In this document: positions 18,936 through 34,127 of the stretch, piece by piece
Layout of the letters: the number at the start of each line of letters is the position of its first letter
How positions within the stretch are numbered: position 1 is the stretch's first letter
Assembly: GCF_004209775.1 (NCBI RefSeq)
Contig: NZ_CP035914.1
Span: 1,240,001 to 1,304,000 of the forward strand
DNA from: Synechococcus sp. WH 8101
Lineage (GTDB): Bacteria > Cyanobacteriota > Cyanobacteriia > PCC-6307 > Cyanobiaceae
DNA length: 64,000 nucleotides
Direction: 5' to 3'
Made by a program: the position numbers and the translations under genes
Notes under the pieces: generated by a model
What the model was told of the DNA's origin: nothing
The model's input: the letters and a program-made list of their open reading frames with translations, nothing else
The model's database searches: none

Positions 18936-20252
18936 TCAGGAGTGGCCCGCCGTGGCCTTCGGTTCGCGATAGTCGAGCCCCATGGCATGCACCAGCGGTT
19001 TGAACGGCTTGAGGTAGCGGGCCTCGTGGGGTTCGCCCGGCAGCATCCGATTCCAGTAGAGCCAGGGCAGCATCTTGGTTTTCATCAGATACATGCTCCA
19101 GCGCTCCTTGGTGGGATCCACCAGGAAGGAACTGACCGGCTTGTTCTCGTAGTTGAATTCCGCCATCAGGGTCCGGTTGTAACCCGTGATCAGGGGGCAG
19201 ACGGTGTAACCGTCGTAGTGAGCCGTCAGCGGACGCCCCTCCAGCTGAGCGATCAGGTTCGCTGCGGCAATCGGAGCTTCACCACGCACCGCCCCTGCGG
19301 TTTTTGAGGTGGGCAGCTTGGCCACATCGCCGAGGCAGAACACATTCGGCCAACCCGGGTGTTGCAGGGTCTGTTTGTCGGCTGCGGCCCATCCGCCGGG
19401 GCCCTCGCCAGCCAGGGGGCTGTTGGCCACCACCTCCGGTGCCGTCATCGGCGGCACGGCGTGGAGCATGTCGAAATGGAGCTCCTGCCGGTGGGGCTCG
19501 CCCTCCTCGGGGGTCACCTCAAACACCGCCACTTTCTTCTCGCCGCGCACCTCCACGAGATTCCAGCGGAAGCGGGCATCGATGCCGCGACGGGCCACCA
19601 CCTGCCGGAGCGTGGCGGCATAGGCGGGCACCGAGAAGATGCCAGCGGTGGCGGTGCAGAACATCACCTTGGTGTTCACCCCCACGCCGCTGCGACTCTT
19701 GAAGCGGTCATCGGCCATGTACATCACCTTCTGGGGCGCCCCACCGCATTTCACGGGGGTGCCGGGCATGGTGAAAATCGCGGTGCCGCCCTGGAAGGCT
19801 TCGATTGTTTCCCAGGTGTAGGGGGCGTAGCGATTGGAGTAGTTGCTGCAGACGCCATTGCGGCCGAGGCTCTCCACCAGGCCGGGAATCCAGTCCCAAC
19901 GGCATTGCAGCCCGGTGGCCAGCACCATGGCCTCGTATTGAATGCGCTGACCTGCATCGGTGATCACCGCGTTCTGGTCGGGATCAAACGTGCTGGCCGC
20001 CGCCTGGATCCAGGTCACACCCTTGGGAATCAGATCCGCTTCATTGCGGCGGGTGCGCTCCACCGGCATCAGTCCGCCGCCCACCAGGGTCCAGCCGGGT
20101 TGATAAAAGTGATCGCTGCTCGGCTCCAGGATCGTGATCTGCAGCGCAGGACGCTGTTTGCGAAGGAGGTTGGCCACGGTGATGCCAGCGGCACCACCGC
20201 CCACGATCAACACCTTGGTGGAGACGGTCGCAGGGGAATCAGACATGAACAA
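18936..20252 (-). CDS. sqr: Sulfide:quinone oxidoreductase, type II
   Basis: Membrane-associated flavoprotein that oxidises sulfide and passes electrons to the quinone pool. The N-terminal FAD-binding motif is VLIVGGGAAGITVANLL. Two redox cysteines lie in TPVKCGGAPQKVMYM (Cys169) and DGYTVCPLITGYNR (Cys352). These match the active-site cysteines of the mitochondrial/bacterial type II enzymes, not the classical type I. Length 438 fits. The Met at 20246 is an equal start. A Rieske protein gene lies just upstream on the same strand, suggesting a link from sulfide to plastoquinone and a cytochrome bc/b6f-type complex. Its presence implies exposure to sulfide. Confidence 0.88.
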   Translation of the reverse strand: MFMSDSPATVSTKVLIVGGGAAGITVANLLRKQRPALQITILEPSSDHFYQPGWTLVGGGLMPVERTRRNEADLIPKGVTWIQAAASTFDPDQNAVITDAGQRIQYEAMVLATGLQCRWDWIPGLVESLGRNGVCSNYSNRYAPYTWETIEAFQGGTAIFTMPGTPVKCGGAPQKVMYMADDRFKSRSGVGVNTKVMFCTATAGIFSVPAYAATLRQVVARRGIDARFRWNLVEVRGEKKVAVFEVTPEEGEPHRQELHFDMLHAVPPMTAPEVVANSPLAGEGPGGWAAADKQTLQHPGWPNVFCLGDVAKLPTSKTAGAVRGEAPIAAANLIAQLEGRPLTAHYDGYTVCPLITGYNRTLMAEFNYENKPVSSFLVDPTKERWSMYLMKTKMLPWLYWNRMLPGEPHEARYLKPFKPLVHAMGLDYREPKATAGHS

Positions 20253-20337
20253 TCAGCGATACCCAAAAGGTATGCAGACATGCGCTTCCTGACATTCCCC
20301 TGAATCGGAAGGAATCCTGCGACCTGAAGGGCCCGAC

Positions 20338-20892
20338 TCAGATCCACCAGGGAGCGCTGCCATCCCGGAAATCGGTCTCCGTCCATGGCGTCAGGCGCAC
20401 CTGGTCGTCGTCGACCTGCACGTGGTTGAGGGCGAGGGAGAGGGGGGCCGGTCCGCGCACCACCTTGCCCGTGTCGTCGTATCGGGAGCCATGGCAGGGG
20501 CAGATGAACTGGTTCGCACCGCTATCCCAGGGCACGACGCAGCCCAGGTGGGTGCAGATCGCATTAAGGCCGTAACTGCCGATGGCCTCCTCACCGGTGA
20601 CGATCAGATAGGTGGGGTCGCCCTTGAGCCCCTGCACCAGGGAGCGATCGCCAACGTCATGGGCGGCGAGCCAACCGGTGAGAGCGATCGGTTCACCCTG
20701 GGCGTTGCGAGCGAGGACGCCGCCTGCCGCAGACGCCTCCCGGCTGGGGGTCAGCATGCGCAGCACGGGATAGAGCGTGCCGAGGGCCACGCCACCAACG
20801 GCGCCGAAGCTGAGCCAATTGAGCAGCTGACGGCGTGAGGGGCTGGGCACCGAGTCCGGAAGGGAGGCACCACTGGAGGAAGCCTGGGTCAT
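20338..20892 (-). CDS. petC-like: Rieske iron-sulfur protein (PetC-like paralogue)
   Basis: 184 residues. One N-terminal membrane segment ([25 protein letters not shown], with twin-Arg RR) is followed by the Rieske domain with cluster motifs CTHLGC and CPCHGS. This is the cytochrome b6f Rieske plan. The start at 20892 (MTQASSS) matches PetC N-termini better than 20955. It is not beside petA as the main petC normally is, and it lies next to SQR, so an alternative Rieske used under special conditions is inferred. A possible operator ATCACTGTGAT lies in the divergent promoter region shared with the Kir channel gene. Confidence 0.85.
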
Positions 20893-20934
20893 GGCGGGAA
20901 AAGCCGGGATCAAAAGGTTAACCATTTTTGTAGT

Positions 20935-20950
20935 ATCACTGTGATGTGAT
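20935..20950. promoter_or_regulatory. Palindromic element in Rieske/Kir divergent promoter
   Basis: ATCACTGTGAT is an 11-base perfect palindrome (20935-20945), followed at once by another GTGAT. On the minus strand a TTGACA box (20951-20956) precedes it. Position between divergent genes fits an operator; the regulator is unknown. Confidence 0.3.
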
Positions 20951-21004
20951 GTCAATCTCGGCGCTAGGTCTGGGTTGAGATCTAGATGGAGTGGGCAGCG
21001 TCGG

Positions 21005-21886: not shown

Positions 21887-21932
21887 CAGCGATCCCAACA
21901 CAGGGCAGCATGGGGTGCTTGAACGGAGACGC

Positions 21933-22766
21933 ATGCGACGCACTGCTCTGTTGCTGGGCAGCCTTCTGGCCCTGTCTGGTCCAGCCCATGCAGGGCTGAT
22001 GGACATCCTCGAGAGCATGCGCCCGGCCCAGCCCCAGCGCCTCGAGCCCCAGCTACCACCGTTGCCGGCCCGGCCCGGCCGAGGCAAAAACTGGATCGGC
22101 AGGCGGGCCCCTAACGCCAAGCTGCCGATCCTGGTGATGGCCGGTCATGCCGATTCCCAGCGCATGCACGGCGCTGGCACCCCCGGATGGGCGGTGGATC
22201 TGGGCGGCGCTGCACCGATGCAGGCAGGGATCACCGATGAGCTCTACTGGAATCTGCGCACCGCCAGAGCCGTGGTGGCTGAGGGGCAGAAGCAGGGTCT
22301 CAACATCCGCTTCTACGACCCGGGGATCCGCACACTGCGCAATGAAAACGATCCCCGCTCGAACTGGAGCGTCGGTGCTGAACACGCCGCGCAGGGTGGG
22401 TATGTGGTGGAGATCCACTACGACGCCTACAGCCCCCATGGCATCGGCCCAGGCATCATCCCGGCGGTGTCCTACGGCTTTTCGGTGATCGACGAAGCCC
22501 TGGCGTCGGAGTTCGGCGCCTATCCCTACGACTACCGCGGCATGCTCGGTGCGCCGCGTCGCGGCATCGCCATGCTGGAGATCGGTCAGCTCGAGGGGGC
22601 ACTGGAGGCCAGCCTGCGCGATCCCCGGCGCCGTGACACCACGTTGAATCAGATCGCAGCGCGGGTGGTGAAGGCGCTCCAGGACGGCCAGGAGCTGGCC
22701 GCCAAAGCCTCCGAGCCGACCGCCGTGTCTCAGCTCGCCAAGCCCGACATCAACCCTCGGGAATGA
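21933..22766 (+). CDS. Exported protein with N-acetylmuramoyl-L-alanine-amidase-like motifs
   Basis: 277 residues with a signal peptide (RRTALLLGSLLALSGPAHAG) from ATG 21933. The segments LVMAGHADSQ, ELYWNLRTARAVVAEGQKQGLNIRFYDPG, EIHYDAY and MLEIGQLEG give the His...Glu/Asn...His...Glu order of zinc-dependent amidase_3 proteins. Identity is low, so the enzymatic role is tentative. The location would be periplasmic. Its 3' end overlaps the convergent Tll0287-like gene by 17 bases. Confidence 0.5.
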   Translation: MRRTALLLGSLLALSGPAHAGLMDILESMRPAQPQRLEPQLPPLPARPGRGKNWIGRRAPNAKLPILVMAGHADSQRMHGAGTPGWAVDLGGAAPMQAGITDELYWNLRTARAVVAEGQKQGLNIRFYDPGIRTLRNENDPRSNWSVGAEHAAQGGYVVEIHYDAYSPHGIGPGIIPAVSYGFSVIDEALASEFGAYPYDYRGMLGAPRRGIAMLEIGQLEGALEASLRDPRRRDTTLNQIAARVVKALQDGQELAAKASEPTAVSQLAKPDINPRE

Positions 22767-23346
22767 ACACGGCGTACATGCCGCGCAGATCTCCGGGCTT
22801 GAAGTTGAAGGCCCGGTCGTTGGGGTAGTTCTCCTGAATGAAAGCGGGTCGATTCGCCTTGCTGCCATGACACGCCAGGCAGCTCGCCTGGACGTCGATG
22901 CGGCGGTAGTAGTTCACGCCCGCACCCTGCTCAGCGCTGGCTGGCTCCCAGAGCCCATTGATTTCGGGGTGCTTGGCGAAGAGATCAATCACCTCGGTCT
23001 CCTGGGCGCCGATGGGGGCATGATCGGGGTTGCGGTAGTGGCTGGCCACCTGGCGCACGGTCCAGCCGTTGTCCTGGCCAATCGCCATGGCTCTCTTGCC
23101 GACGGGCATGCACACCTCACGCATCGTGTCCATGGTGGGCTCGTCCGTACTGCCCTCCAGGGATGAGGCGAGGGAGATGCGCATGCGATCCAGCGCTTCC
23201 ATCTGATCCACGGCTTTCGCCAAGACAGCCGGGTCGACGGGAGCGGCCCCCTGGTTGGCCAGGGCGATGGCGGGCTGAACAGTGAAGAGCAGCCCTGCGA
23301 TCAAAGCAGCGAGGAGCTGCGAGAGGGGAGACGTGAGGTTGTTCAT
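22750..23346 (-). CDS. Tll0287-like c-type heme protein (DUF3365)
   Basis: Exported 198-residue protein. A signal peptide (SPLSQLLAALIAGLLFTVQPAIALA) is followed by a PAS-like domain with a Cys in MREVCMPVGKRA and a covalent heme site SCLACHG near the C-terminus. Tll0287 of Thermosynechococcus has this plan with His/Cys heme ligation and was found in a strain expressing the PsbA2 form of D1. Here it lies directly downstream of the psbA gene encoding the same type of D1, which supports a functional link. Function (redox or gas sensor, electron carrier) is unknown. Start at 23346 is chosen for the signal peptide; the longer 23397 start runs into the psbA terminator. Confidence 0.8.
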   Translation of the reverse strand: MNNLTSPLSQLLAALIAGLLFTVQPAIALANQGAAPVDPAVLAKAVDQMEALDRMRISLASSLEGSTDEPTMDTMREVCMPVGKRAMAIGQDNGWTVRQVASHYRNPDHAPIGAQETEVIDLFAKHPEINGLWEPASAEQGAGVNYYRRIDVQASCLACHGSKANRPAFIQENYPNDRAFNFKPGDLRGMYAVFIPEG

Positions 23347-23399
23347 CAGGCCGTGAGCAATGTGTTCAAGATGGCCACGCCGCTCACGGCCTGCCACCC

Positions 23400-23426
23400 A
23401 AAAAGGGCCTGGAGGATCCAGGCCCT
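23400..23426 (-). terminator. Rho-independent terminator of psbA
   Basis: Stem AGGGCCTGGA / TCCAGGCCCT (10 bp, 3-base loop) followed on the minus strand by TTTTT. It lies 37 bases after the psbA stop and before the heme-protein gene, so the two may be only partly co-transcribed. Confidence 0.75.
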
Positions 23427-23462
23427 GATGCCCTGATCAGCTGGGCGGGGTTCAAAGCCCCA

Positions 23463-24542
23463 CTAACCGATCGCAGGTGCTGTGAGCGCCACGGGTTGAC
23501 TGTCGACCGCTGCCAGATCGAGCGGGAAGTTATGCACGTTGCGTTCATGCATCGCTTCGATACCAAGACCGCCACGGTTGAGCACATCGGCCCAGGTGCT
23601 GATCACCCGACCCTGGTTGTCGAGGATCGACTGGTTGAAGTTGAAACCATTGACGTTGAAGGAGAAGCTCACCACCGCCATGGAGGCGAACCAGATGCCG
23701 ATCACCGGCCAGGCCGCCAGGAAGAAGTGAAGGCTGCGGCTGTTGTTGAAGGAGGCGTATTGGAAGATCAGGCGACCGAAGTAACCGTGGGCAGCCACGA
23801 TGTTGTAGGTCTCTTCTTCCTGGCCGAATTTGTAGCCACGGTTCTGGGATTCCGCTTCGGTGGTTTCACGCACCAGGGAGGAGGTCACCAGGGAGCCGTG
23901 CATGGCGGAGAAGAGGGCTCCACCGAAGACGCCGGCCACACCCACCATGTGGAAGGGGTGCATGAGCACGTTGTGTTCCGCCTGGAGCACCAGCATGAAA
24001 TTGAAGGTGCCTGAAATCCCGAGGGGCAGGGGATCGGAGAAGGAGCCCTGGCCGATGGCATACACGAGCAGCACGGCGGTGGCTGCAGCCACAGGGGCGC
24101 TGTAGGCAACGGCGATCCAGGGACGCATGCCGAGGCGGTAGGAGAGTTCCCACTCGCGCCCCATATAGGCGTAGATGCCGATCAGGAAGTGGAAGATGAT
24201 CAGCTGATAAGGGCCGCCGTTGTAGAGCCACTCATCGAGGCTGGAGGCCTCCCAGATCGGGTAGAGGTGCAGTCCGATCGCGTTGGAGGTGGGCACTACC
24301 GCTGCGGTGATGATGTTGTTGCCATAGAGCAACGAACCGGTCACTGGCTCACGCACGCCGTCGATGTCAACGGGGGGAGCGGCGATGAAGGCGAGGATGA
24401 AGCAGATGGCTGCCGTGAGCAGGCAGGGAATCATCAGCACACCGAACCAGCCGATGTAGAGGCGGTTGTCGGTGCTGGTGATCCAGTTCTTGAAGGCATC
24501 CCAGGAGCCAACGCGCCTGCGGGACAGGGTTGTTGAAGACAT
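23463..24542 (-). CDS. psbA: Photosystem II D1 protein, low-oxygen isoform D1'
   Basis: Core reaction-centre subunit of photosystem II, 359 residues, five transmembrane helices. Numbering matches the standard exactly. The three substitutions that mark the microaerobic D1' form are all present: Ala80 (usual Gly), Leu158 (usual Phe) and Ala286 (usual Thr). Oxygen-evolving ligands are intact (Asp170, Glu189, His332, Glu333, His337, Asp342, Ala344), as are Tyr161, His190 and His198, so it should evolve oxygen and is not a rogue D1. Glu130 is of the high-light type. Further differences include Ala162 and Leu186. It is followed by the Tll0287-like gene. Confidence 0.95.
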
Positions 24543-24632
24543 GAGGTAAGGAAGACAGGATGGGAACAGGCGGTGAAGAAAAATCCTCCGATCGGCTGGG
24601 GGCTGAGCGGAGGATCACCGTCCCATTCGTTT

Positions 24633-24645
24633 ATAACAGTAGCGT
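24633..24645 (-). promoter_or_regulatory. Shared element ACGCTNNYGTTAT upstream of psbA
   Basis: On the minus strand the sequence reads ACGCTACTGTTAT, about 90 bases before the psbA start, and continues as TTATAAAC, so the right half may also serve as a -10 box. The same 13-base pattern occurs before acsF and before the heme oxygenase gene. Confidence 0.45.
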
Positions 24646-24673
24646 AATGACGTACAGGTGGGGAGTCTTGACG

Positions 24674-25180
24674 ATGCGTACAAACGCTCAATTGTTCAGG
24701 CAACCGGCTCGGCTTCTGCTGGCACTGGTGCTCAGCCTTCTCGTGGTCCTGGGGGCAGCGGCCGCCACCAGCGCGGCCGCCCAGCGCTATCGCCTGCACG
24801 ACCAGAACGGTGAGGCCTGGCTCGCTGTGATGATCGAGACCGAGCCAGCGGATGCCATCCCCTGGCAGCTGCGGCTCACGGCCAGTGACATGGACCAGCA
24901 CCTAAACCACAGCGCCCCCCTCGCCCTCGCGGATGGCGTGGACCAGACCTGGTCACTCAGCAACACCAGCGCCATGATGGTGCCCTCAGAGCAGGCCGCG
25001 ATGCCGGCCGGTTCGGCCCAGTTCAGCCTGGAAGCACTCGTTCCGGCGCCTTCGGAGAATCGTCCCCTGCTGTTGCGCATCCCTCTGGAGCCGGGGGGCG
25101 AAGCCGTGATCATCAGCGACCCAGCCCTCACTGCAGCCCTGCATCGGGCAGGAGAGCACTATCCAGTACTGACCCGCTGA
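24674..25180 (+). CDS. Exported hypothetical protein, possibly DUF3122
   Basis: 168 residues from ATG 24674 with a long signal peptide (PARLLLALVLSLLVVLGAAAATSAAAQ). The mature part is beta-rich (YRLHDQNGEAWLAVMIETEP and LLLRIPLEPGGEAVIISDP). The arrangement of an opening DQNG-W strand and a closing L-IPL strand recalls the cyanobacterial DUF3122 family, but weakly. Divergent from psbA; the 3' end overlaps the convergent pentapeptide gene by 53 bases. Confidence 0.5.
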   Translation: MRTNAQLFRQPARLLLALVLSLLVVLGAAAATSAAAQRYRLHDQNGEAWLAVMIETEPADAIPWQLRLTASDMDQHLNHSAPLALADGVDQTWSLSNTSAMMVPSEQAAMPAGSAQFSLEALVPAPSENRPLLLRIPLEPGGEAVIISDPALTAALHRAGEHYPVLTR

Positions 25181-25796
25181 GATCAGCGCTGCGTAGGCGC
25201 GTGTCGCGCAGGTCGCAGCCACTCAGGTCGGCACCCCGCAGATCGGCCCCACTGAGATCAGCGCCATAGAGGCAACTGTGTCGCAAGTTGGCGCCCTGCA
25301 GGTTGACCCCCTGGAGCAGGGCAAAGCTGAGATCGGCGGCAGCGAAATCGGCGCCGCCGAGATCGGTGAGCTGGTCGAGCCCGGAGCGGAAATCCGCTTC
25401 CACCAGACGGGCGCCGCGCCAGAGGCTTCCGGCGGCCACCACGCCCCGCAGGCAGCAGCGGTGCAGGAAGGCACCAGTGAAATCGGCCTTCTGCAGGCGG
25501 GAGCCGGAGAGGTCGGCGTCATGCCAGGAGGAGCCCTGGGCGAGCACGCCGGAGAGGTCGGCGCCCCAGATCAGCGACTGCTGGAAGCAGCAGCCTTCAA
25601 TGTTGGTGCCGGCCAGACAGGCGTGACCGAAACGGGCTTCCTTGAAGCAGCCGCCGTGGAGATCACATCCGGCCAGATCGAGATCGACGCCATCAATCTC
25701 ACCGAGGCGCAATCCCGGAAATCGGGTCTGACCGGAGTTCAGTTGATCCCGCAGCTCCTCGACCGTGGTGGGCAGGGCGCTGAAACCAGCCATCAA
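25128..25796 (-). CDS. Pentapeptide-repeat protein
   Basis: 222 residues, most of it A(D/N)LxX repeats that fold as a right-handed quadrilateral beta-helix, for example GADLSGADLRGADLSGCDLRD. No signal peptide is seen. Function of such proteins is mostly unknown; some inhibit gyrase and others are structural. It is translationally coupled (4-base overlap) to the ArsR regulator gene upstream, so the two belong to one operon divergent from acsF and probably share its control. Confidence 0.85.
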   Translation of the reverse strand: MMAGFSALPTTVEELRDQLNSGQTRFPGLRLGEIDGVDLDLAGCDLHGGCFKEARFGHACLAGTNIEGCCFQQSLIWGADLSGVLAQGSSWHDADLSGSRLQKADFTGAFLHRCCLRGVVAAGSLWRGARLVEADFRSGLDQLTDLGGADFAAADLSFALLQGVNLQGANLRHSCLYGADLSGADLRGADLSGCDLRDTRLRSADLSGSVLDSALLPDAGLQ

Positions 25797-26098
25797 ACGA
25801 TGGCGCTGAGGGCATCGAGCTGTTGACGCCGGGAGGCGAGCAACAGCTTCTCGGCCTGGGCCACGAAGCGGAACACCGAGCGATCGATCACTTCGTAGAA
25901 CACCAGCGATCCTTCAGGGCGGCGCTCCACCACGCCGGCGATCGTGAGCAGTTTGAGGTGCTTGGAGACCAGGGCCTGACTCAGACCGGTTTTCTCCACC
26001 ACGGCGGTGACATTGATCGGCCCGTCGCGCAGGGCTTCCAACACCGCCAGACGGTTGGGTTCAGAAAAGACCTTGAAATAATCGGCGAGATGCTCCAT
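25793..26098 (-). CDS. ArsR-family repressor without cysteines
   Basis: 101-residue winged-helix regulator. The recognition helix is in VVEKTGLSQALVSKHLKLLTIAGVVERRPEG, followed by the wing (SLVFYEVIDRSVFRF). The protein has no Cys at all, so the thiol or metal-thiolate sensing used by ArsR, SqrR and BigR is impossible. The signal may be another ligand, or metal bound by His/Asp/Glu. It is divergent from acsF with a 124-base gap that holds an ACGCTNNYGTTAT element, so it is the leading candidate for control of this block. This role is inferred. Confidence 0.85.
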   Translation of the reverse strand: MEHLADYFKVFSEPNRLAVLEALRDGPINVTAVVEKTGLSQALVSKHLKLLTIAGVVERRPEGSLVFYEVIDRSVFRFVAQAEKLLLASRRQQLDALSAIV

Positions 26099-26168
26099 CG
26101 GGCCGCGTCACAAGCTTCAGACGCAATCATCATGGCACGGATCCGTTGATCGCCGATTCCGTGTCATC

Positions 26169-26181
26169 ACGCTTTCGTTAT
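26169..26181 (+). promoter_or_regulatory. Shared element ACGCTNNYGTTAT upstream of acsF
   Basis: Reads ACGCTTTCGTTAT and continues GGCATAG, 42 bases before the acsF ATG. The extended match to the heme oxygenase site is ACGCT-NN-CGTTATG-N-CAT, 15 of 19 bases. It lies between acsF and the divergent ArsR gene. Confidence 0.45.
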
Positions 26182-26222
26182 GGCATAGTCCTCGAAGCGA
26201 CTTGCCCTGCGCTCTCGACGCC

Positions 26223-27266
26223 ATGACAGCCACCACCAGCGGAGCACCGGCGGCTCCCCATCTTCGTGAAGACCTGCTCACACCTCGCTTCTACACCACG
26301 GAGATCGCCAAGGCCGCCCGCACGGATCTCGAGGAGCAGCGGTCCTCCTTCGAGGCGATGCTCAGTGAAATGGAGGCCGACTACAACCGCGATCACTTCG
26401 ATCGGCGAGCCCCGCTGGATCGCCTGCACGACCTCAATCCCGAGCAGAAGGGCGCTTATGAAAGCTATCTGGTGCGCTCCTGCGTCTCAGAATTCTCCGG
26501 CTTTCTCCTGTTCAAGGAGCTCTCCCGCCAGCTGCGCGACGCCAAGCGCCCGGAGCTCAGCCGTCTGTTCAACCTGATGGCCCGCGATGAGGCCCGCCAT
26601 GCCGGCTTCCTGAACCGGGCCCTGGTGGCTGAAGGGATCGAAATCGACCTGCCCTCCCTCAGTGGAAAGCGACCGATCACCTGGTTCCCGCTCAACTGGG
26701 TGCTCTATTCGGTGTATCTCTCCGAGAAGATCGGCTACTGGCGTTACATCCTGATCGACCGGCATCTCAAGGCCCATCCGGAGAACGCCTTCGCGCCACT
26801 GTTTGATTTCTTCGAGCCCTGGTGTCAGGACGAGAACCGCCATGGCGACATTTTCAACATGCTGATCCGTTGTTGGCCCGGCCTCAACAGCGGCCTGCGC
26901 GGCTCCCTGCTCAGCCGCTTCTTTCTCTGGAGCGTGTTCCTGACCCACAGCCTCACGGTGTGTGAGCGCGGTGACTTCTACCGTCTGCTCGGCATGGATC
27001 CCGACCATTTTGATGCGGAGGTGATGCGCCAGACCAATCGCACAGCCCGGCGCGCCTTCCCCCGGGTGTTTGATCTGGAGAACTCCCAGTTCCTCGCCCT
27101 GCGGGATCAACTGGTCGACACCTTCCGGCGCCTGAACAACAGCAAGCGGGATCAGCCAGGGCTGGCCGGTGCCTGGACTCGCCTCGGCCTGAGGCTGCGC
27201 TTTGGTCAGTTGTTGCTGCGCCAGTTTCTGCAGCCGATGCAGGCCAGCAACGAGGTGGCGGCATGA
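26223..27266 (+). CDS. acsF: Mg-protoporphyrin IX monomethyl ester (oxidative) cyclase
   Basis: Diiron membrane-associated enzyme that forms the isocyclic ring of chlorophyll using O2. 347 residues. Two ExxH metal motifs are seen: ARDEARHAGF (Glu123, His126) and DENRHGD (Glu204, His207), with a further Glu in CVSEFSGFLLFKEL. Location beside heme oxygenase and hemN, and next to the low-oxygen psbA, suggests it is the low-oxygen isoform (ChlAII in Synechocystis); a main copy would then be elsewhere. Start at ATG 26223 rather than TTG 26202. The next gene overlaps its stop by 4 bases. Confidence 0.92.
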   Translation: MTATTSGAPAAPHLREDLLTPRFYTTEIAKAARTDLEEQRSSFEAMLSEMEADYNRDHFDRRAPLDRLHDLNPEQKGAYESYLVRSCVSEFSGFLLFKELSRQLRDAKRPELSRLFNLMARDEARHAGFLNRALVAEGIEIDLPSLSGKRPITWFPLNWVLYSVYLSEKIGYWRYILIDRHLKAHPENAFAPLFDFFEPWCQDENRHGDIFNMLIRCWPGLNSGLRGSLLSRFFLWSVFLTHSLTVCERGDFYRLLGMDPDHFDAEVMRQTNRTARRAFPRVFDLENSQFLALRDQLVDTFRRLNNSKRDQPGLAGAWTRLGLRLRFGQLLLRQFLQPMQASNEVAA

Positions 27267-27964
27267 CACCCACCGATCCATGTCCCCGCGTCTTCATTGG
27301 TTTTGATCCGCGCGAAGACGTGGCGGTGAATGTGCTCACCGATTCGATGCAGCGTCATGCCAGCGTGCCAGTGCAGATCGCCCAGATCCGCCTCTCCCAG
27401 CTGCGCTCGGTGTACACCCGGCCGCACAATCCACTCCAGAGCACGGAGTTCTCCTTCAGTCGCTTTCTGGTGCCCTGGCTCTGCGGCTACGAAGGTTGGG
27501 CCCTCTTCATCGATGCCGACATGCTCTGCCTCGGTGATCTGGCTGAACTCTGGGCCCTGCGCGACGACCGCTATGCGGTGCAGGTGGTCAAGCATCAGCA
27601 CGACTGCGAGTCGGGCACCAAATTCCAGGGCATGCCCCAGACCCCCTATCGCCGCAAGAACTGGTCGTCGGTGATGTTGTTCAACTGTGATCGCTGCAAG
27701 GCACTCACCCCCCAGGTGGTGAACACGGCCAGCGGTCTGGAGCTGCACCAGTTCCAATGGCTCGAGGACGGCGAGATCGGCGAACTGCCGCCGCAATGGA
27801 ATGTGCTGGTGGGTGTGCAGGACGTTCCCGAAGACGCCCGCATCCTCCATTACACCCTGGGCGGTCCCTGGTTTGACGACTGCCAGACCATGCCTCGCTC
27901 CGAGCTCTGGACACAGGCCCGCCAGGCCCTCAACCACCCCTTAGCGCTTCAAGCTTCTTCGTGA
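27263..27964 (+). CDS. Glycosyltransferase family 8-like protein
   Basis: 233 residues, GT-A-like. The DxD motif is in WALFIDADMLCLGD, followed by VMLFNCDRC and a C-terminal ILHYTLGGPWFD segment that supplies the metal-binding His. Sugar donor and acceptor are unknown. It overlaps acsF by 4 bases (ATGA) and the next gene by 1 base (TGATG), so tight coupling ties a sugar-transfer enzyme to tetrapyrrole and diiron genes for reasons not clear from sequence. Confidence 0.75.
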   Translation: MTPTDPCPRVFIGFDPREDVAVNVLTDSMQRHASVPVQIAQIRLSQLRSVYTRPHNPLQSTEFSFSRFLVPWLCGYEGWALFIDADMLCLGDLAELWALRDDRYAVQVVKHQHDCESGTKFQGMPQTPYRRKNWSSVMLFNCDRCKALTPQVVNTASGLELHQFQWLEDGEIGELPPQWNVLVGVQDVPEDARILHYTLGGPWFDDCQTMPRSELWTQARQALNHPLALQASS

Positions 27965-28644
27965 TGACCCAGCTCGACTTTGCCAGTGCGGCCTACCGCG
28001 AGGCCTACAGCCGGATCAACGGCGTTGTGATTGTGGGCGAAGGTCTCGCCAATCGCCATTTCCAGATGTTGGCGCGGCGCATTCCCGCTGATCGCGACGA
28101 GCTGCAGCGGCTCGGACGGATGGAGGGAGACCATGCCAGCGCCTTTGTGGGCTGTGGTCGCAACCTCGGCGTGGTGGCCGATCTGCCCTTGGCCCGACAC
28201 CTGTTTCAGCCCCTCCATGATCTGTTCAAACGCCACGACCACGACGGCAATCGGGCCGAATGCCTGGTGATCCAGGGGTTGATCGTGGAATGTTTCGCCG
28301 TGGCGGCTTACCGCCACTATCTGCCGGTGGCTGATGCCTACGCCCGGCCGATCACCGCAGCGGTGATGAACGATGAATCGGAACATCTCGACTACGCCGA
28401 GACCTGGCTGCAGCGCCATTTCGATCAGGTGAAGGCCCGGGTCAGCGCGGTGGTGGTGGAGGCGTTGCCCCTCACCCTGGCGATGTTGCAGTCGCTCGCT
28501 GCAGACATGCGACAGATCGGCATGGATCCGGTGGAAACCCTGGCCAGCTTCAGTGAACTGTTTCGGGAGGCGTTGGAATCGGTGGGATTTGAGGCTGTGG
28601 AGGCCAGGCGACTGCTGATGCGCGCGGCCGCCCGGATGGCCTGA
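27964..28644 (+). CDS. Aldehyde-deformylating-oxygenase-like diiron protein
   Basis: 227 residues, ferritin-like four-helix protein. All six metal ligands of cyanobacterial aldehyde deformylating oxygenase are present at a constant offset of six residues: Glu26, Glu54, His57, Glu109, Glu138, His141. The core YSRIN-(V)I-GE, RMExDHxxxFxxCGRNLGV and ESEHLDYAETWL is conserved, including a Cys equivalent to the CGKNLGV cysteine. ADO makes alkanes from fatty aldehydes and is normally next to acyl-ACP reductase. Here the reductase is absent and the gene lies in a tetrapyrrole operon, so a paralogue with another or low-oxygen role is likely. Coupled to the glycosyltransferase. Confidence 0.8.
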   Translation: MTQLDFASAAYREAYSRINGVVIVGEGLANRHFQMLARRIPADRDELQRLGRMEGDHASAFVGCGRNLGVVADLPLARHLFQPLHDLFKRHDHDGNRAECLVIQGLIVECFAVAAYRHYLPVADAYARPITAAVMNDESEHLDYAETWLQRHFDQVKARVSAVVVEALPLTLAMLQSLAADMRQIGMDPVETLASFSELFREALESVGFEAVEARRLLMRAAARMA

Positions 28645-28670
28645 TCGCCGGGTCTGATCGCTTGGCCTGA

Positions 28671-29009
28671 TCAATCCAGGGCCACAGGGGCTGCCGCCGG
28701 AGGCAGCCCACCAGCATTGCGGTTGAGCCACTCCGGTTCGAGCGACAGGGGTTGGGGGGCGACGCCGAAGCGAAGCTGCAGCCAGGTGGCCACGTTCGGG
28801 TCCTGCACCACCACCGCCTCCCGGCCGGCCACACCGAACACCCCTTCCGACCAGGCCTCGGGGAGATACCAGATCCCGGCGTCGCTGGGGGAGGAATGGG
28901 CGTGGCGTTCCTTGATCAGTTCGCGCAACTGGCCATCACCACTGAGGCGCCCGACGGGGGCGATCAGAGCCTGCAGGCCGGAGGAGGAGTTCTGGGGGGC
29001 GCGGGCCAT
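28671..29009 (-). CDS. Hypothetical protein, about 112 aa
   Basis: Unrecognised soluble protein with segments IKERHAHSSPSDAGIWYLPEAWSEGVFGVAGREAVVVQDPNVATWLQLRFGV. The start at 29009 is preferred. The earlier Met at 29048 would put the start codon inside the shared upstream element. It is divergent from heme oxygenase and convergent with the ADO-like gene. Confidence 0.5.
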   Translation of the reverse strand: MARAPQNSSSGLQALIAPVGRLSGDGQLRELIKERHAHSSPSDAGIWYLPEAWSEGVFGVAGREAVVVQDPNVATWLQLRFGVAPQPLSLEPEWLNRNAGGLPPAAAPVALD

Positions 29010-29046
29010 GACAACACACAACAAACCGAAAACATTGAACCATGGC

Positions 29047-29059
29047 ATAACGGCAGCGT
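29047..29059 (-). promoter_or_regulatory. Shared element ACGCTNNYGTTAT before heme oxygenase
   Basis: On the minus strand reads ACGCTGCCGTTAT, continuing GCCATGG. It lies 33 bases before the heme oxygenase ATG and in the divergent region with the small hypothetical gene. Overlapping plus-strand sequence TACTGTTGACAC shares TACTGTT with the psbA site. Confidence 0.45.
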
Positions 29060-29091
29060 ATTACTGTTGACACATTGGTTGCCTCGTTGCC

Positions 29092-29772
29092 ATGACCGCC
29101 AGCCACTCGATTTCCGATCACGCCAAGCCCGCCGATGCCGACATGCGTCGCGGCTTTGGCCCAAGAGTGCGCAAGCTGCACAGCCGTATCGGCAAAGCGC
29201 ATCACAAGGCCGAAGGCATGTCCTTCTCCAGAGCCCTTCTTGCCGGTGATGCGTCGCCTCGTCAGCTGGCGGCCCTGATGCGGGCGCTGGCGCCGGCCTA
29301 TGCCTTCCTTGAACAGGAAGCGCCCGATCTGGCCTTCTCGCTCGGATCTGATTCGATTCCCTGGCACGACCTGGCCCGCACCACCGCCCTGCGCCACGAC
29401 CTCGCCATCCTCGCCAGTGTTGCCGCCACGCCGGCATCGGCGGCGGCGGCGATCTGGATGGAGCAACTGCAGCAGCTGGCCCGCCAGGCCCCCCATCGGC
29501 TGATGGCCCATGTGTACGTGCGCTACGGCGGCGATCTCTCCGGCGGCCAGCAATTGGCGGCCCAGGCCAACGCCATCCTGAACAAGGCCGGCCTTCCCGC
29601 CCTCAGCTTCTGGTCGTTCACGGCACCGATCACCGAGCTCAAGCTGGCGCTCCATGACGGCTTCGAAGCAATGGAACTGTCCGAAGCCGAGGAGGTGGAA
29701 CTGCTGGATGAGGCGGTGCAGGCCTTCCACGCCACCCAGCGCTTGCTGGCGGAACTGGCCCAGCTCGACTGA
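29092..29772 (+). CDS. ho2: Heme oxygenase
   Basis: Opens heme to biliverdin with O2 and ferredoxin electrons, the first step to phycobilins. 226 residues. The proximal heme ligand His is in the N-terminal KLHSRIGKAHHKAE helix, and the distal helix has the family signature HVYVRYGGDLSGGQQLA. It is placed before hemN and after acsF as in the micro-oxic chlAII-ho2-hemN cluster of Synechocystis, so it is probably the second, low-oxygen heme oxygenase. The N-terminal 20 residues before MRRGFG are non-conserved. Confidence 0.9.
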   Translation: MTASHSISDHAKPADADMRRGFGPRVRKLHSRIGKAHHKAEGMSFSRALLAGDASPRQLAALMRALAPAYAFLEQEAPDLAFSLGSDSIPWHDLARTTALRHDLAILASVAATPASAAAAIWMEQLQQLARQAPHRLMAHVYVRYGGDLSGGQQLAAQANAILNKAGLPALSFWSFTAPITELKLALHDGFEAMELSEAEEVELLDEAVQAFHATQRLLAELAQLD

Positions 29773-29841
29773 TCACACCAAAACAGCCCCACGGGTCGCT
29801 GCCCCCGGCCCCGTTCATCCATCCCGCCACCAAGCCATCGC

Positions 29842-31203
29842 ATGACAGCAACGCCCCAGACCAGCCGTGCCCTCGAGTTGCTGCTCAAACATGATCGGCC
29901 GGTACCCCGATACACCAGCTACCCCACCGCCGCTGCGTTTCGCACCGATGTGGGCGACCTCCAGTTGCGGCAACAGCTAGCGGAAGTCACCGACGCGCCC
30001 CTGTCGCTGTACGTCCATGTGCCCTTCTGTCGCCATGCCTGCTGGTATTGCGGCTGCAACCGGATCACCACCCAGCTCGGTTCCAAGGTGGTGGAGCCCT
30101 ATCTCGCCTCGTTGGCACAGGAACTGGAGCTGATCACCGAGGCCATGCCCCAACGCCGGCGACTGGCGCAGATGCATTGGGGCGGCGGCACCCCGAACTA
30201 TCTGAATCGGGAGGAAACGTCCCAGCTCTGGGAGCTGATCCGTCGCCATTTCGATTTTGACGACGACCTGGAGGCCTCGATTGAGGTCAACCCGGAAGGT
30301 CTCAGCCGCGATGCGGCCTGCCAGCTGCGGGAGCTGGGCTTCAACCGCATCAGTTTCGGTATCCAGGATGCGGATCCGGATGTGCAGAACGCCGTCAACC
30401 GGGTGGTGCCGGACACCCAGTTGCGCCGCGCGATGCACTGGCTACGGGAAGCGGGCTTCGAGAGTGTGAATGTGGATCTGATCTGTGGTCTGCCCCTCCA
30501 GACCCCGGAGCGGTTCCAGCGCACGCTGGAGCTGGTGCAGGAGTTGCGCCCGGATCGGATCTCTCTGTTTTCCTTTGCCTACCTGCCCGAGCAGTTGCCG
30601 ATGCAGCGCAAGATTCAGGCGGAGGATCTCCCCAGCCAGCGGCAACGGCTGAGCATGCTGGAGGACGCCAATCAGCTCCTCTGCGTCAACGGCTACGACG
30701 CGATCGGCATGGACCATTACGCACTGCATGACGATGGTTTGGCGGAGGCCGCCCGGGAGGGCCGGCTGCATCGCAACTTTCAGGGCTACACCACAGGCGG
30801 TGAGCTGGATCTGCTCGGGATCGGGCCGAGCGCGATCAGCCAGTTCCGCCATCTGTTCAGCCAGAACGAACGGGATCTCAAGGCCTATGGCGCTGCTCTG
30901 AACCAGGGGCAGTTGCCCGTGGAACGGGGTCTGCTGGTGACCGAACCGGATGTGCTGCAACGCCGGGAGCTGATCCGCGAGGTGATGTGTCGGTTTGAAG
31001 TTCAGCTGCCGCCAACCGGTTTTGAGCAGGAATTGGCCGATTTCAAGCAGCTGGAATGCGATGGCTTGGTCTGTCTGAGCCGCGGCGTTGATGGAAGCAT
31101 CAACGTGCGCGTGACCACGGATGGCCGGTGGTTGATTCGCACAATCGCTGCCGTGTTGGATCCGAACCAACGGCATCAAGCCAGCGGATCGCGGCTGATC
31201 TGA
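29842..31203 (+). CDS. hemN: Oxygen-independent coproporphyrinogen III oxidase
   Basis: Radical SAM enzyme that decarboxylates coproporphyrinogen III without O2. 453 residues. The cluster motif is CRHACWYCGC (CX3CX2CXC), followed by the GGGTPNYL, EVNPEG, RISFGIQD and GLPLQTPERF segments of the HemN family. It lies 69 bases after heme oxygenase on the same strand. It replaces the O2-dependent HemF when oxygen is low, which fits the surrounding genes. Confidence 0.93.
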   Translation: MTATPQTSRALELLLKHDRPVPRYTSYPTAAAFRTDVGDLQLRQQLAEVTDAPLSLYVHVPFCRHACWYCGCNRITTQLGSKVVEPYLASLAQELELITEAMPQRRRLAQMHWGGGTPNYLNREETSQLWELIRRHFDFDDDLEASIEVNPEGLSRDAACQLRELGFNRISFGIQDADPDVQNAVNRVVPDTQLRRAMHWLREAGFESVNVDLICGLPLQTPERFQRTLELVQELRPDRISLFSFAYLPEQLPMQRKIQAEDLPSQRQRLSMLEDANQLLCVNGYDAIGMDHYALHDDGLAEAAREGRLHRNFQGYTTGGELDLLGIGPSAISQFRHLFSQNERDLKAYGAALNQGQLPVERGLLVTEPDVLQRRELIREVMCRFEVQLPPTGFEQELADFKQLECDGLVCLSRGVDGSINVRVTTDGRWLIRTIAAVLDPNQRHQASGSRLI

Positions 31204-31238
31204 AGTGGCCAACATTCCTGGTTTGAAGCCACATCACA

Positions 31239-33404
31239 ATGGAGTCAGAGCTCCCCGCAGCCATGTCTCCAGATCGGGTTGAGAACGCCACCCTGCAGCG
31301 TCTCGCCCCTCATCTGGTGGCGCGGCCCCGACGCGGTGTGGTGGGCAGCAGTCGCCAGGCCAAACAATTGCGTGAGGCGATTCGAACCGCTGCTGCTGAT
31401 CGGGAGCGCCATGCCGTGTTGGTGTTCGGTGAACCGGGCCTGGAGAAAGACAACCTGGCGGCGCTGATTCATTTCGGTTCTGTCGATCGCCATCGGCTGA
31501 TGTTGCGGATCGACGGCTCACGGATGCGCTCCGATGGGGCCGACCTCTTCGGTACTGCGTCCCAATCCGAGGATCCGCCCCTGTTGCAGCTGTTGGGCGA
31601 TGGCTCTCTGCTGGTCGACAACCTCGATCAGGTGCCGGAGCCGGCCAGGCAGGCCTTGCTCGATCTGGCCCGCACCGGTGCGTGGCGATCGGTGGGTTCC
31701 ACCGATCCACCGCATCGGTTTCAGGGGCGCTTGTTCTTCACCGCCGAAACCACCCAGACCCCATTCGATGGCTGCTGCAGCGTGATCAGGGTGCCGCCCC
31801 TAAGGGTGCGGCGTCAGGATCTGGGCGAGTGGCTGCGCTATGGCGTGCGCCAACGCAGCCGCAGCCTTGGCTGGGAGCCGGCGCCGGAGGTGCCAATGGC
31901 CGTGGTGAAGCAACTGCAGACCCATGATTTCCCCAACAACCTGCGCGAACTGGATGCGCTGATCGATCGAGCCATCCAGCAGGTGCGCCATCAGGAGAAC
32001 CATCAGAACAACACACGCACGCGGCGTGGGCCGAAACAGTTGCCGGAGGATGTGTTCTGGACCTCACCACGGCAGGAGCACGCCCGCTTCGATCTCTGGC
32101 GCTGGAAACCGCAGCTGCGCGATTGGATGCGATCACCACGGCTCTGGAACGGCCTGCTGTTCGGTCTGGTGAGCTGGGTGTTTGTGCTGGTGAATCTCTG
32201 GCTCTGGCAGGGCCCCCAGGATCGGGCCCACAACGGCGCCCTGAACCTGTTCTGGGCTTGGTGGTGGCCCTTGATCCTGATCGGTTTCCCCCTGGTGGGG
32301 CGGCTCTGGTGTTCCTTCTGCCCGTTCATGGTGTGGGGCACGATCACGCAGCGCCTGGCGCAAAGGCTGGGCTGGCAACCGCTGGCCTGGCCCCGAGGCG
32401 ATCACGACCGCTGGGCCTCGCGTTGGCTCAGCGCTGGCTTTGCGTTGATTCTGATCTGGGAAGCGGTGTGGGACCTTCCCAACACGGCCTGGTTGAGCAG
32501 TTCCCTGTTGCTGTTGATCACCGCTGGTGCCGTGATCGGCTCCCTGCGCTTTGAGAAACGGTTCTGGTGCCGCTACCTCTGCCCGATCGGTGGCATGAAC
32601 GGCCTGTTCGCCAAGCTTTCGATTCTGGAGTTGCGCGCCCAGGCCGGCATCTGCAGCGGCAATTGCAGCAGCTACGCCTGCTTCAAAGGCGGGCCGGCGG
32701 AAGGGGAGGGTCTGGCCACGGAGGGTTGCCCGCTCGGCACCCATCCCGCCCACCTGCGCGACAACCGCAACTGCGTGCTTTGCCTCAGCTGCGCCCAGGC
32801 CTGTCCGCATCGCTCGGTCCGTCTGGCGATCCGCCCGCCTGCTGCAGATCTGCAACGGGAGATGGTGACTCCCGAGGGGGAACCGTCCTTGCTGTTGATC
32901 CTGGTGGGAAGCATTGCCCTCGGCCATTGGCAGCGCCTGTGGCAGTGGAGTGGTCTCGCGCCGGCCAGCCTCAGCGAGGGGCCCCTCCTACCGCGACTTG
33001 CTGTGGCGTCGGCGACCTTGGCCCTGCCCGCCCTGATGTTTTGGCTCGGCCGGACAGTCGTGAGTCGGATCCGGCTCGAACGCTGCCTTTACGGATTGCT
33101 TCCGTTGTTCTGGGCCCTGTTGCTCGCGCACCATCTCCCCCTGGGGATGTCGGAAGCGGGACTCCTGCTGCCCGTCAGCCTGTCGCCCTGGCTTGGCGGC
33201 GCGGCCCTGTCATTGCCCCACTGGCAGGCTCAGCCCGCGGTGATCGGCTTCTGCCAGAGCGGCGTGGTCGCCCTCGGAGCGATCTGGAGCCTGGTGATCC
33301 TGCGCCGCATGTTCAGCCATCGCCGCAGCGTCTGGATCGGAGCGTCCAGCCTGATGGTCACGCTGGCGATCTGCGGCCGCTGGCTGGTGAATGGATCGGG
33401 GTAG
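31239..33404 (+). CDS. AAA (sigma-54-activator-like) domain fused to membrane polyferredoxin
   Basis: 721 residues. Residues about 30-270 resemble the AAA domain of NtrC-type activators, with a P-loop-like GEPGLEKDN (64-72), GDGSLLVDNLDQVP as Walker B, and NNLRELDALIDRAI. The GAFTGA loop that touches sigma-54 is missing. Residues about 310-720 form a NapH/NosR/CcoG-like membrane ferredoxin: membrane helices, CSFCPFMVWG, CRYLCPIGGMNG, CSGNCSSYACFKGG, and the 4Fe-4S motif CVLCLSCAQACP. Cyanobacteria are known to lack sigma-54, so the AAA part must do something else, perhaps ATP-driven or sensory. It lies just after hemN and reads into the tRNA-Pro gene. Confidence 0.8.
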   Translation: MESELPAAMSPDRVENATLQRLAPHLVARPRRGVVGSSRQAKQLREAIRTAAADRERHAVLVFGEPGLEKDNLAALIHFGSVDRHRLMLRIDGSRMRSDGADLFGTASQSEDPPLLQLLGDGSLLVDNLDQVPEPARQALLDLARTGAWRSVGSTDPPHRFQGRLFFTAETTQTPFDGCCSVIRVPPLRVRRQDLGEWLRYGVRQRSRSLGWEPAPEVPMAVVKQLQTHDFPNNLRELDALIDRAIQQVRHQENHQNNTRTRRGPKQLPEDVFWTSPRQEHARFDLWRWKPQLRDWMRSPRLWNGLLFGLVSWVFVLVNLWLWQGPQDRAHNGALNLFWAWWWPLILIGFPLVGRLWCSFCPFMVWGTITQRLAQRLGWQPLAWPRGDHDRWASRWLSAGFALILIWEAVWDLPNTAWLSSSLLLLITAGAVIGSLRFEKRFWCRYLCPIGGMNGLFAKLSILELRAQAGICSGNCSSYACFKGGPAEGEGLATEGCPLGTHPAHLRDNRNCVLCLSCAQACPHRSVRLAIRPPAADLQREMVTPEGEPSLLLILVGSIALGHWQRLWQWSGLAPASLSEGPLLPRLAVASATLALPALMFWLGRTVVSRIRLERCLYGLLPLFWALLLAHHLPLGMSEAGLLLPVSLSPWLGGAALSLPHWQAQPAVIGFCQSGVVALGAIWSLVILRRMFSHRRSVWIGASSLMVTLAICGRWLVNGSG

Positions 33405-33469
33405 AGGGATTTGAACCCCCGGCATCCTGCTCCCAAAGCAGGCGCGCTACCAAACTGCGCTATACCCCG
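33396..33469 (-). tRNA. tRNA-Pro (UGG)
   Basis: 74-base cloverleaf on the minus strand. The acceptor stem is CGGGGTA/TACCCCG, the anticodon arm CCTGC-TTTGGGA-GCAGG with anticodon TGG, and the T arm CCGGGGGTTCAAATCCC. No CCA is encoded. The last bases overlap the stop codon of the convergent polyferredoxin fusion gene. Confidence 0.95.
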
Positions 33470-33480
33470 GAAGCCCGATT

Positions 33481-33711
33481 CTAACGCCAGGGCTGTTCGG
33501 TGCTGAGATCTGCGGTCTGGCGGCGGAACAGCCCACCCAGGTAGTGACGCACCACCGAACGCTCCTTGCAGCCCTGTTGAAACAGGAATCCGGCGATTGC
33601 GGCCTGCACCAGGCGGTACTGGTCCCATTGGGGGTGGTCGGCAATGAACATCCCCATGGCGCGATAGAGATCCTCCGGCAACTGGTTTTCCACACTCACG
33701 TGAACCGGCAT
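33481..33711 (-). CDS. DUF2811 family protein
   Basis: About 76 residues. The segment HVSVENQLPEDLYRAMGMFIADHPQWDQYRLVQAAIAGFLFQQG, then VVRHYLGGLF, is typical of the small cyanobacterial DUF2811 family of unknown function, which has a ribbon-helix-helix-like look. Start at 33711 (MPVHVS) fits the family better than 33732. Confidence 0.7.
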   Translation of the reverse strand: MPVHVSVENQLPEDLYRAMGMFIADHPQWDQYRLVQAAIAGFLFQQGCKERSVVRHYLGGLFRRQTADLSTEQPWR

Positions 33712-34127
33712 CGCATCAGGTGTCTCCTGCAACTCGCTCTCTCGCTGTCAACCCATCCATCACGCCATGGCAACCGGTCGACTGTCAAAACGGCTTGATC
33801 GGAGGTGATGCAACGGGTGCGTTAGAGCAGATTGCTTGCCCTTACTGGGTTTTGAGGATGGCGATGTGTGCTGGAACACCATCCGGAAGCGGCCTGGAGC
33901 TCGCCGTCAAGGGGAAAGGGGGTTTTCCCGAGCTGCCCGACAGAACCCCGCTCGGCCATTCGATTGCCGTGATTGCCCCTGTGGAAAAGCTGTGGAAACG
34001 ATTGGTTGCGAGGGGGAAAGGAGCTCTGTTCAAGGCTGCTGATCGATCCGCTCCGCTGGCACAGCAATCGCGATCAGCGGACGCAGCCAGGGATTGTTGC
34101 CATGGTGATGGGGTGCGCGTTCTATCG
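33712..34127. other. Gene-free stretch with two DnaA-box-like sites
   Basis: A reading frame runs open in phase with the aldo/keto reductase but shows no conserved sequence or start signal. TGTGGAAAA (33980-33988) and TGTGGAAAC (33991-33999) match, on the minus strand, the TTTTCCACA form of cyanobacterial DnaA boxes. No origin gene such as dnaN is nearby, so this is only noted. Confidence 0.4.

Follow-up and report, generated by a model that had tools for sequence, protein, structure and literature searches.

Locus and architecture of the fusion gene

The window analysed here, a 64,000-nucleotide stretch of the genome of Synechococcus sp. WH 8101 (contig NZ_CP035914.1), contains a gene that joins a degenerate AAA domain, of the type found in sigma-54 enhancer-binding proteins, to a membrane polyferredoxin (Table 1). 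The gene is an intact single open reading frame (ORF) of 721 amino acids (aa). Because many homologues align to its product only from residue 9-20, a second start codon, ATG 31263, may be the true start, which would give a protein of 713 aa. Two Pfam domains scored above their curated cut-offs, Sigma54_activat (residues 35-165, 27.2 bits against a cut-off of 20.2) and Fer4_5 (residues 424-460, 26.5 bits against 22), while AAA_lid_14, Fer4 and Fer4_10 were detected below cut-off only. No helix-turn-helix or other DNA-binding domain was found by Pfam in the window protein (E 0.01), its C-terminal side being occupied by the membrane polyferredoxin, and the Pfam scan of this protein likewise returned no cNMP_binding domain. 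The gene hemN lies on the same strand and ends 35 bases upstream, and the two genes probably share a transcript. Together with the genes that precede hemN, the fusion gene, as last member, forms a compact putative low-oxygen/sulfide island (19002-33404). From its domain content and this context, the fusion protein is tentatively interpreted as a membrane-bound redox sensor or transducer that aids cyanobacterial acclimation to low oxygen and sulfide, an interpretation to which a probability of about 0.4 is assigned.

Table 1. Fusion gene, parts of its product and neighbouring genes in the window (positions within the window)
Feature	Position	Strand	Evidence and remarks
AAA-polyferredoxin fusion gene	31239..33404	+	intact single ORF, 721 aa; alternative start ATG 31263
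Degenerate enhancer-binding-protein AAA domain and lid (residues 35-250)	31341..31988	+	Pfam; phmmer to NifA/FleQ/NtrX chains; fold match
Walker A, GEPGLEKD (residues 64-71)	31428..31451	+	Lys70 retained in 115/115 readable members
Walker B, LLVDN (residues 124-128)	31608..31622	+	glutamate position is Asn in the window protein
Four membrane helices with C358xxC361P; FWCRYLCP (C444, C448) just past the fourth (residues 300-437)	32136..32549	+	AlphaFold models, hydropathy, conservation
Cysteine-rich Fe-S region, presumably cytoplasm-facing: C444, C448, C472, C476, C481, C497, C512, C515, C518, C522 (residues 437-530)	32547..32828	+	conservation
About five C-terminal membrane helices (residues 545-718)	32871..33392	+	AlphaFold models, hydropathy
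hemN	29842..31203	+	TIGR00538, 2.5e-141, 471.6 bits against 324.95
Heme oxygenase (ho2 by context)	29092..29772	+	Pfam
Aldehyde deformylating oxygenase-like (ADO) gene	27961..28644	+	214.7 bits, just under family cut-off 222.65
ORF, glycosyltransferase-like	27263-27964		by eye only
acsF/chlA cyclase	26202..27266	+	family match; at E 1e-20 the genome has just one further match, 44% identical
ArsR/SmtB regulator	25796..26098	-	candidate regulator of the island
HetL-like pentapeptide-repeat protein	25131..25793	-	recurrent neighbour
Variant psbA (D1)	23466..24542	-	80-81% to the genome's three other copies
Tll0287-like gene	22753..23346	-	Pfam PF11845
Kir-type channel	21005-21883		
petC Rieske protein	20341..20925	-	
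Sulfide:quinone reductase-like (SQR) gene	19002..20213	-	type III seleno model, 226.5 bits, below 525 cut-off

Conservation and distribution of the fusion

Single ORFs of approximately 650-1130 aa that covered both halves were found in nearly all fetched relatives, the exception being locus L099, which carries frameshifts. Gene calls around the relatives' loci were made by codon-scored calling and are rough. The occurrence of such ORFs across many genomes ruled out a local fusion artefact, and the AAA-polyferredoxin fusion is real and conserved across the class, far beyond chance. In a scan of genome contigs (tblastn, E 1e-3), 518 loci encoded a relative, the best 80 of which were examined, and 42 of 99 relatives' genomes contained a match. 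When 291 genomes of the phylum were searched with a profile, 132 showed some match, in many cases only to cNMP-type domains; by hand count, 73 had both the AAA and the polyferredoxin half (a few of them broken or split), all within the window's own class. No relative was matched in phages. Matches occurred in 20 plasmid records, and among the 15 listed, two cyanobacterial ones cover most of the protein and 13 cover parts of the membrane half.

Beyond the window's family, members typically measure 840-900 aa and carry an N-terminal cNMP-binding domain. Among 36 diverse members scanned, 24 of which came from outside the window's family, cNMP_binding was matched in 23 and Sigma54_activat in 35 (E 0.001), and these N-terminal modules from regulatory families speak for a sensor. 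Picocyanobacterial members, the window protein included, have approximately 14-62 residues N-terminal to the AAA domain in the rows printed (none in the contig-edge row L105). In a quick tree of 114 rows, for which the program warned of long branches, their 89 rows grouped together with support.

A degenerate AAA domain of the enhancer-binding-protein type

Sequence searches of the PDB with the AAA half returned NifA, NtrX, FleQ, PspF, VpsR and similar proteins. Its AlphaFold model (mean predicted local distance difference test score, pLDDT, 82) superimposed on FleQ (6jdi) with a Z score of 19.1 and a root-mean-square deviation (rmsd) of 3.0 over 230 aligned residues, and on VpsR (7v2b) with a Z score of 16.8 and an rmsd of 4.1 over 225. 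With sigma-54 enhancer-binding proteins such as FleQ, NtrX, NtrC1, PspF and NorR, the fusion protein shares the AAA fold with its lid, the Walker A lysine, and the PPLRxR and FPxNxxEL regions. Unlike these proteins, it has no GAFTGA loop, Walker-B glutamate, arginine-finger stretch or DNA-binding domain, and a membrane half is present instead. VpsR and FleQ, whose AAA domains can bind cyclic di-GMP, have the same fold and illustrate how the head could act by ligand binding; both are DNA-binding regulators, unlike the fusion protein. The cyclic di-GMP contact residues of FleQ are probably not matched in the fusion protein, and a FleQ/VpsR-like cyclic di-GMP head was considered and not adopted.

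Motifs were tallied over 116 aligned family members, the window protein included, 115 of which were readable at the Walker sites. A Walker-B glutamate occurred in none of these 115; the position was occupied by Q (41), N (36), K (29), C (3), R (2), G (2), H (1) and, at locus L143, D (1). At the first acidic position of Walker B, D was found in 86 members, N in 26, S in two and E in one. Sigma-54 activators have an arginine-finger stretch of the FREDLYYR type, and the corresponding motif pattern was found in 0 of 116 members, the stretch being an alignment gap against NifA and FleQ; the segment at residues 164-183 was only 19-24 residues long in 115 of the 116. A GAFTGA-like pattern likewise had no match in the 116 members, and the loop stretch aligned poorly or fell into gaps when compared with NifA and FleQ. 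Because neither the Walker-B glutamate nor the arginine-finger motif was recovered in any member, ATP hydrolysis by the AAA head is unlikely; nucleotide binding is possible. The head is likeliest a nucleotide-binding, non-hydrolysing module rather than an ATP-using motor, and, judging from knowledge of AAA proteins, remodelling of RNA polymerase would likewise not be expected. In paralogues of the fusion protein (see below), Walker A is of the GTGKT or GSGKT type, and the Walker-B glutamate is missing as well. A separate observation concerned one genus (genomes G084, loci L033/L126, and G098), in which the fusion protein has two degenerate AAA domains in tandem.

The sigma-54 DNA-binding domain (PF04552) gave no match in the window's genome, while four of 14 control genomes were positive. 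A normal sigma-54 activator was ruled out by the lack of GAFTGA, of sigma-54 in the genome and of a DNA-binding domain. An earlier note on this DNA, made from its sequence alone, had described an NtrC-like AAA domain without GAFTGA which, as cyanobacteria lack sigma-54, could not be a normal activator, and these results agree with it on these points. Its further proposal of an ATP-using redox device or sensor appears half right: a redox-related function is likely, and ATP use is probably not part of it. A published survey (PMC3162934, available part) reported neither sigma-54 nor its activators in any of the 29 cyanobacteria sequenced at the time, and yet a large cyanobacterial family keeps a sigma-54-activator AAA domain.

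A NapH-like membrane half

Among NCBIfam families, the membrane half matched NapH/MauN (TIGR02163) best (7e-11), at 42.1 bits far under the family cut-off of 213.05. The fusion protein resembles NapH/MauN membrane ferredoxins in having CxxCP and CxxxCP motifs together with a cysteine-rich region, and Fer4_5 was matched in all 36 members scanned; unlike NapH/MauN, it has extra C-terminal helices. No CcoG model occurred among 22 NCBIfam matches (E 0.01), the presence of such a model in the library being unconfirmed; of the NapH/CcoG likeness noted earlier, the NapH side was matched. Each of twelve cysteines (358, 361, 444, 448, 472, 476, 481, 497, 512, 515, 518 and 522) was missing from at most one of the 116 rows. 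The membrane half would carry Fe-S clusters, and the charge bias of the loops would place the cysteine region presumably on the cytoplasmic side. A Foldseek search with the membrane model yielded no PDB match under E 0.001, with the Fe-S loop poorly modelled (pLDDT <50), and a PDB sequence search of this half gave nothing better than E 0.25; a known fold may still underlie it.

The closest stand-alone homologue was a 452-aa protein of Deinococcus ficus encoded on plasmid pDFI1 (WP_027463891.1), which was 32% identical over residues 291-573 and in which all 12 cysteines aligned. It differs from the fusion protein in that no AAA or cNMP domain was found in it. Its existence suggests that two modules were joined long ago and that the fusion is no local artefact. 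The earlier note had considered that the halves might be separate genes in relatives because of a local fusion error; the membrane half does stand alone in Deinococcus, and an error is contradicted by the single ORFs described above. The gene preceding WP_027463891.1 had no Pfam match, and the annotated neighbours show no clear link. As a side observation, the WP_027463891.1 gene (L166:5950-7308) overlaps a histidine-rich hypothetical gene by 4 bases.

The headless Deinococcus protein bears on the main rival explanation, in which the fusion protein would be a gated electron-transfer enzyme. Its NapH-like half would connect quinol with a soluble acceptor of Fe-S or thiol type by moving electrons between them, and its AAA/cNMP-like head would be an allosteric gate opened by nucleotide or redox state. 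Over-reduction of the quinone pool by SQR and low oxygen would thereby be relieved, with electrons vented or recycled. What separates this model from a sensor is whether electron transfer is the protein's task or serves as the signal. Consistent with this explanation, the NapH/MauN model matched all 36 members scanned at E 1e-5, and the full set of cysteines is aligned in a protein without a head. However, the NapH score lies far below the family cut-off, and a quinone or heme site could not be shown, the confidence of the Fe-S loop being as low as stated above. A gated enzyme is regarded as rather unlikely, although it is the strongest competitor of the sensor interpretation.

A weak homologue from Azospirillum (25.6-27%) is located in a cluster with iron transporter, cupredoxin and FTR1 genes. 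It raises the possibility that the fusion protein is a partner in ferrous-iron uptake, a polyferredoxin of the FtrD type working with an FTR1 permease. Synechocystis slr0593, a putative 4Fe-4S, MauN/NapH-like protein with a cNMP domain, probably belongs to the same family as the fusion protein. In the available part of PMC3516471, slr0593 is listed in an expression table as a 'cAMP binding membrane protein' with no assigned function, and its early fall in iron deprivation (at 3 and 12 hours) would fit a role in iron uptake. Against this role, the Azospirillum protein fails to align all Fe-S cysteines, the closer Deinococcus homologue has no annotated FTR1 gene beside it, and the scan of 14 neighbours in the window, a subset of its genes, revealed neither an iron transporter such as an FTR1 permease nor a periplasmic iron protein. 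An FtrD-type function appears very improbable.

The low-oxygen/sulfide island and its recurrence

The enzymes encoded upstream of the fusion gene are those of the ChlR-regulated chlAII-ho2-hemN low-oxygen operon (PMC4500134, PMC13421787), in the available parts of which an AAA-polyferredoxin is unmentioned. Unlike that operon, the window has an ArsR gene and no ChlR-type palindrome above chance. At a tolerance of one mismatch, the published palindrome occurred 5 and 3 times in the window, where 5.70 and 5.75 occurrences would be expected, and never between 19.0 and 33.4 kb. The idea of a ChlR-driven operon was rejected on these counts; the single MarR-family match in the window's genome is distant from the window. 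The variant D1 protein differs from the other copies by Leu for Phe (AVLL instead of AVFL) and Ala for Thr (WFAS instead of WFTA or WFTS), substitutions that may be marks of a microaerobic D1 form. Proximity of sqr to low-oxygen psbA has already been published for 15 genomes (PMC5061849, available part).

Recurrence of this context was assessed in 120 fetched loci with the window's proteins as queries, and a locus was labelled low-oxygen when at least two of ArsR, pentapeptide, acsF, ADO, heme oxygenase and hemN occurred within approximately 8 kb. The label applied to the window and to 11 of the 120 loci (L058, L065, L084/L153, L092, L101, L103, L110, L142, L143 and L152; L084 is the same place as L153), in four gene orders. 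In five of the 11 (L101, L103, L110, L142 and L143), hemN itself was near the fusion gene. Weaker hits in unlabelled loci comprised ArsR in L117 and L118 (43-47%), a pentapeptide gene in L129, and both ArsR (61%) and pentapeptide (39%) on the short contig of L102. On the tree, where 11 rows carried the label, it required six changes, at least four of them forced by well-supported branches, and none of 500 shuffles gave a number as low, a comparison inflated by near-copies. Linkage of the main copy to low-oxygen genes thus appears to recur in several separate lineages, and the adjacency to hemN reported in the earlier note is part of a wider pattern.

Among the 61 genomes of the window's family, the fusion gene was present in 17 and hemN in eight, and all eight hemN genomes had both (p 8.3e-6). 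When only genomes of at least 2.4 Mb were compared, all seven HemN-positive genomes had the gene, against 15 of 29 gene-positive overall (p 0.0063). Co-occurrence with PFOR was 16 of 20 over all 99 genomes (p 0.00024) and four of four in the larger genomes of the family (p 0.1), and with SQR it was five of six in the window's family (p 0.0051).

By analogy with the role in cofactor assembly proposed for CcoG/NapH-like proteins, the fusion protein might be an assembly or repair factor. Its AAA head would then resemble a chaperone, carried by a membrane Fe-S protein that delivers electrons or clusters for the maturation of low-oxygen enzymes such as HemN. The position of the gene beside hemN and heme oxygenase, and the co-occurrence with hemN in the window's family, are compatible with such a factor. 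However, chaperone AAA proteins need hydrolysis, for which the Walker-B glutamate is missing throughout, and 22 of the 42 gene-positive genomes had no hemN match at E 1e-80. An assembly function is considered improbable. Similarly improbable is that the protein is a hitch-hiker. It would then be a membrane protein common to cyanobacteria, with some unrelated function, and would reside in the low-oxygen islands of some picocyanobacteria because variable genes cluster in islands. The larger genomes of the window's family have the gene far more often (15 of 29 of at least 2.4 Mb versus 2 of 32 smaller ones) and most orthologues lie outside low-oxygen clusters, as a hitch-hiker would predict, but the linkage repeats in separate lineages with different gene orders, and a paralogue is linked to sulfide genes.

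No constant enzyme partner and no constant electron donor or acceptor subunit was found beside the subfamily-A (main) copies among the neighbours examined. This absence argues against the gated enzyme, and because of it a regulator fits the main copies better than an enzyme subunit would.

A paralogue in sulfide-gene surroundings

Plasmids of Pseudanabaena galeata and Aulosira laxa, as well as several other genomes, carry a group of paralogues approximately 34-36% identical to the window protein (43% over the best piece of the frameshifted copy L183). The sample consisted of 13 paralogue loci, including two pairs from one genus each, and 28 subfamily-A (main-copy) loci served as control; the stretches compared were unequal in length (approximately 10-20 kb). 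In 10 of the 13 loci, cysK directly followed the paralogue or lay within approximately 1.1 kb, whereas it was matched in 2 of the 28 main-copy loci. Genes for SQR, petC, psbA, rhodanese or a Tll0287-like protein were matched in eight of 13 paralogue stretches and in none of the 28 main-copy loci, a contrast that also runs counter to a hitch-hiker. Some of the rhodanese matches were only 26-32% identical, psbA at the edge of L171 was taken from annotation, and hits to the SQR query at 23-25% (L137/L181 and L138) were read as another flavoprotein and not counted. One paralogue locus of the 13, L177, showed none of these neighbours.

In genome G235 (locus L178), the paralogue was found amid HdrABC-like and SQR-like genes, all scoring under their curated cut-offs, and the gene content of G328 (L179) was related to that of the G235 cluster. 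In G359, the paralogue follows cytochrome bd genes, with one methyltransferase-like gene in between. The location of paralogues near SQR, HdrABC-like genes, petC and cytochrome bd is consistent with a gated enzyme. As an observation in its own right, the L178/L179 cluster combines HdrABC-like, SQR-like and rhodanese genes and a DUF4405 protein with the paralogue (family scans were run on L178 only), and its content suggests an Hdr-linked sulfide pathway in cyanobacteria. PMC5061849 and PMC8002359 contained no mention of cysteine synthase, 4Fe-4S, cyclic nucleotide, sigma-54 or Rieske.

Proposed role

If the fusion protein is a redox sensor or transducer, its Fe-S part would exchange electrons with the quinone pool or with a cytoplasmic carrier, or would suffer damage by oxygen or sulfide. 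The resulting redox or damage state would be passed on to the cytoplasmic AAA head. The head would bind nucleotide without turnover and would signal via altered protein contacts, without RNA polymerase remodelling. The genomic context, as judged from gene content, supports a role in low oxygen and sulfide.

Several observations weigh against this interpretation. Neither a DNA-binding output domain nor a signalling partner could be found for the fusion protein, and most orthologues sit outside low-oxygen clusters: 103 of 114 tree rows lacked the low-oxygen label, although many of the contigs are short. Outside the window's family, 12 of 15 HemN-positive genomes had the gene (p 0.18), and over all 99 genomes the co-occurrence with SQR (6 of 9) was not significant (p 0.16). 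The Fisher tests of co-occurrence ignore phylogeny, and genome size, with the counts given above for the window's family, confounds them. The fall of slr0593, a probable family member, in iron deprivation adds to these points, and the stand-alone Deinococcus protein suggests that the membrane half can be a working electron carrier, beyond a sensor alone.

Conceivably, though this is doubtful, sigma-54-less cyanobacteria put an AAA domain of the enhancer-binding type to new use, as a nucleotide switch that works without hydrolysis and controls electron flow or redox signalling via a membrane polyferredoxin. If so, the fusion protein would represent a previously unrecognised class of redox switch for photosynthesis in low oxygen and sulfide, alongside SQR, cytochrome bd, variant D1, Hdr-like complexes and HemN. 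Should it sense or gate redox flow, it would be a missing component linking the quinone pool to the low-oxygen/sulfide response. The architecture is built of known modules, and its biological setting is better supported than the earlier note had claimed. A functional account of this architecture was not encountered in literature searched by title and the opening of the abstract, a coverage that excludes most subscription papers, and the available part of a 2026 review of cyanobacterial redox signalling (PMC13421787) makes no mention of NapH, polyferredoxin, AAA or cyclic nucleotide.

Further features of the window and family

A simple promoter scan of 25900-33800 gave no sites, and four terminator-like sites were found, which is at chance level. 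No nap or mau genes were recognised among the scanned neighbours. The ADO-like gene recurs in low-oxygen clusters, and similar genes (42-47%) are present in L178/L179. Broken copies, with frameshifts or splits, were found in L099, L183, G323, G277, G349, G190 and G199; those of G190 and G199 contain an in-frame TGA, and G349 has a C-terminal remnant. At L072, the contig is labelled as a Bifidobacterium breve metagenome-assembled genome, and its gene nests in the picocyanobacterial group, indicating a probably mislabelled bin.

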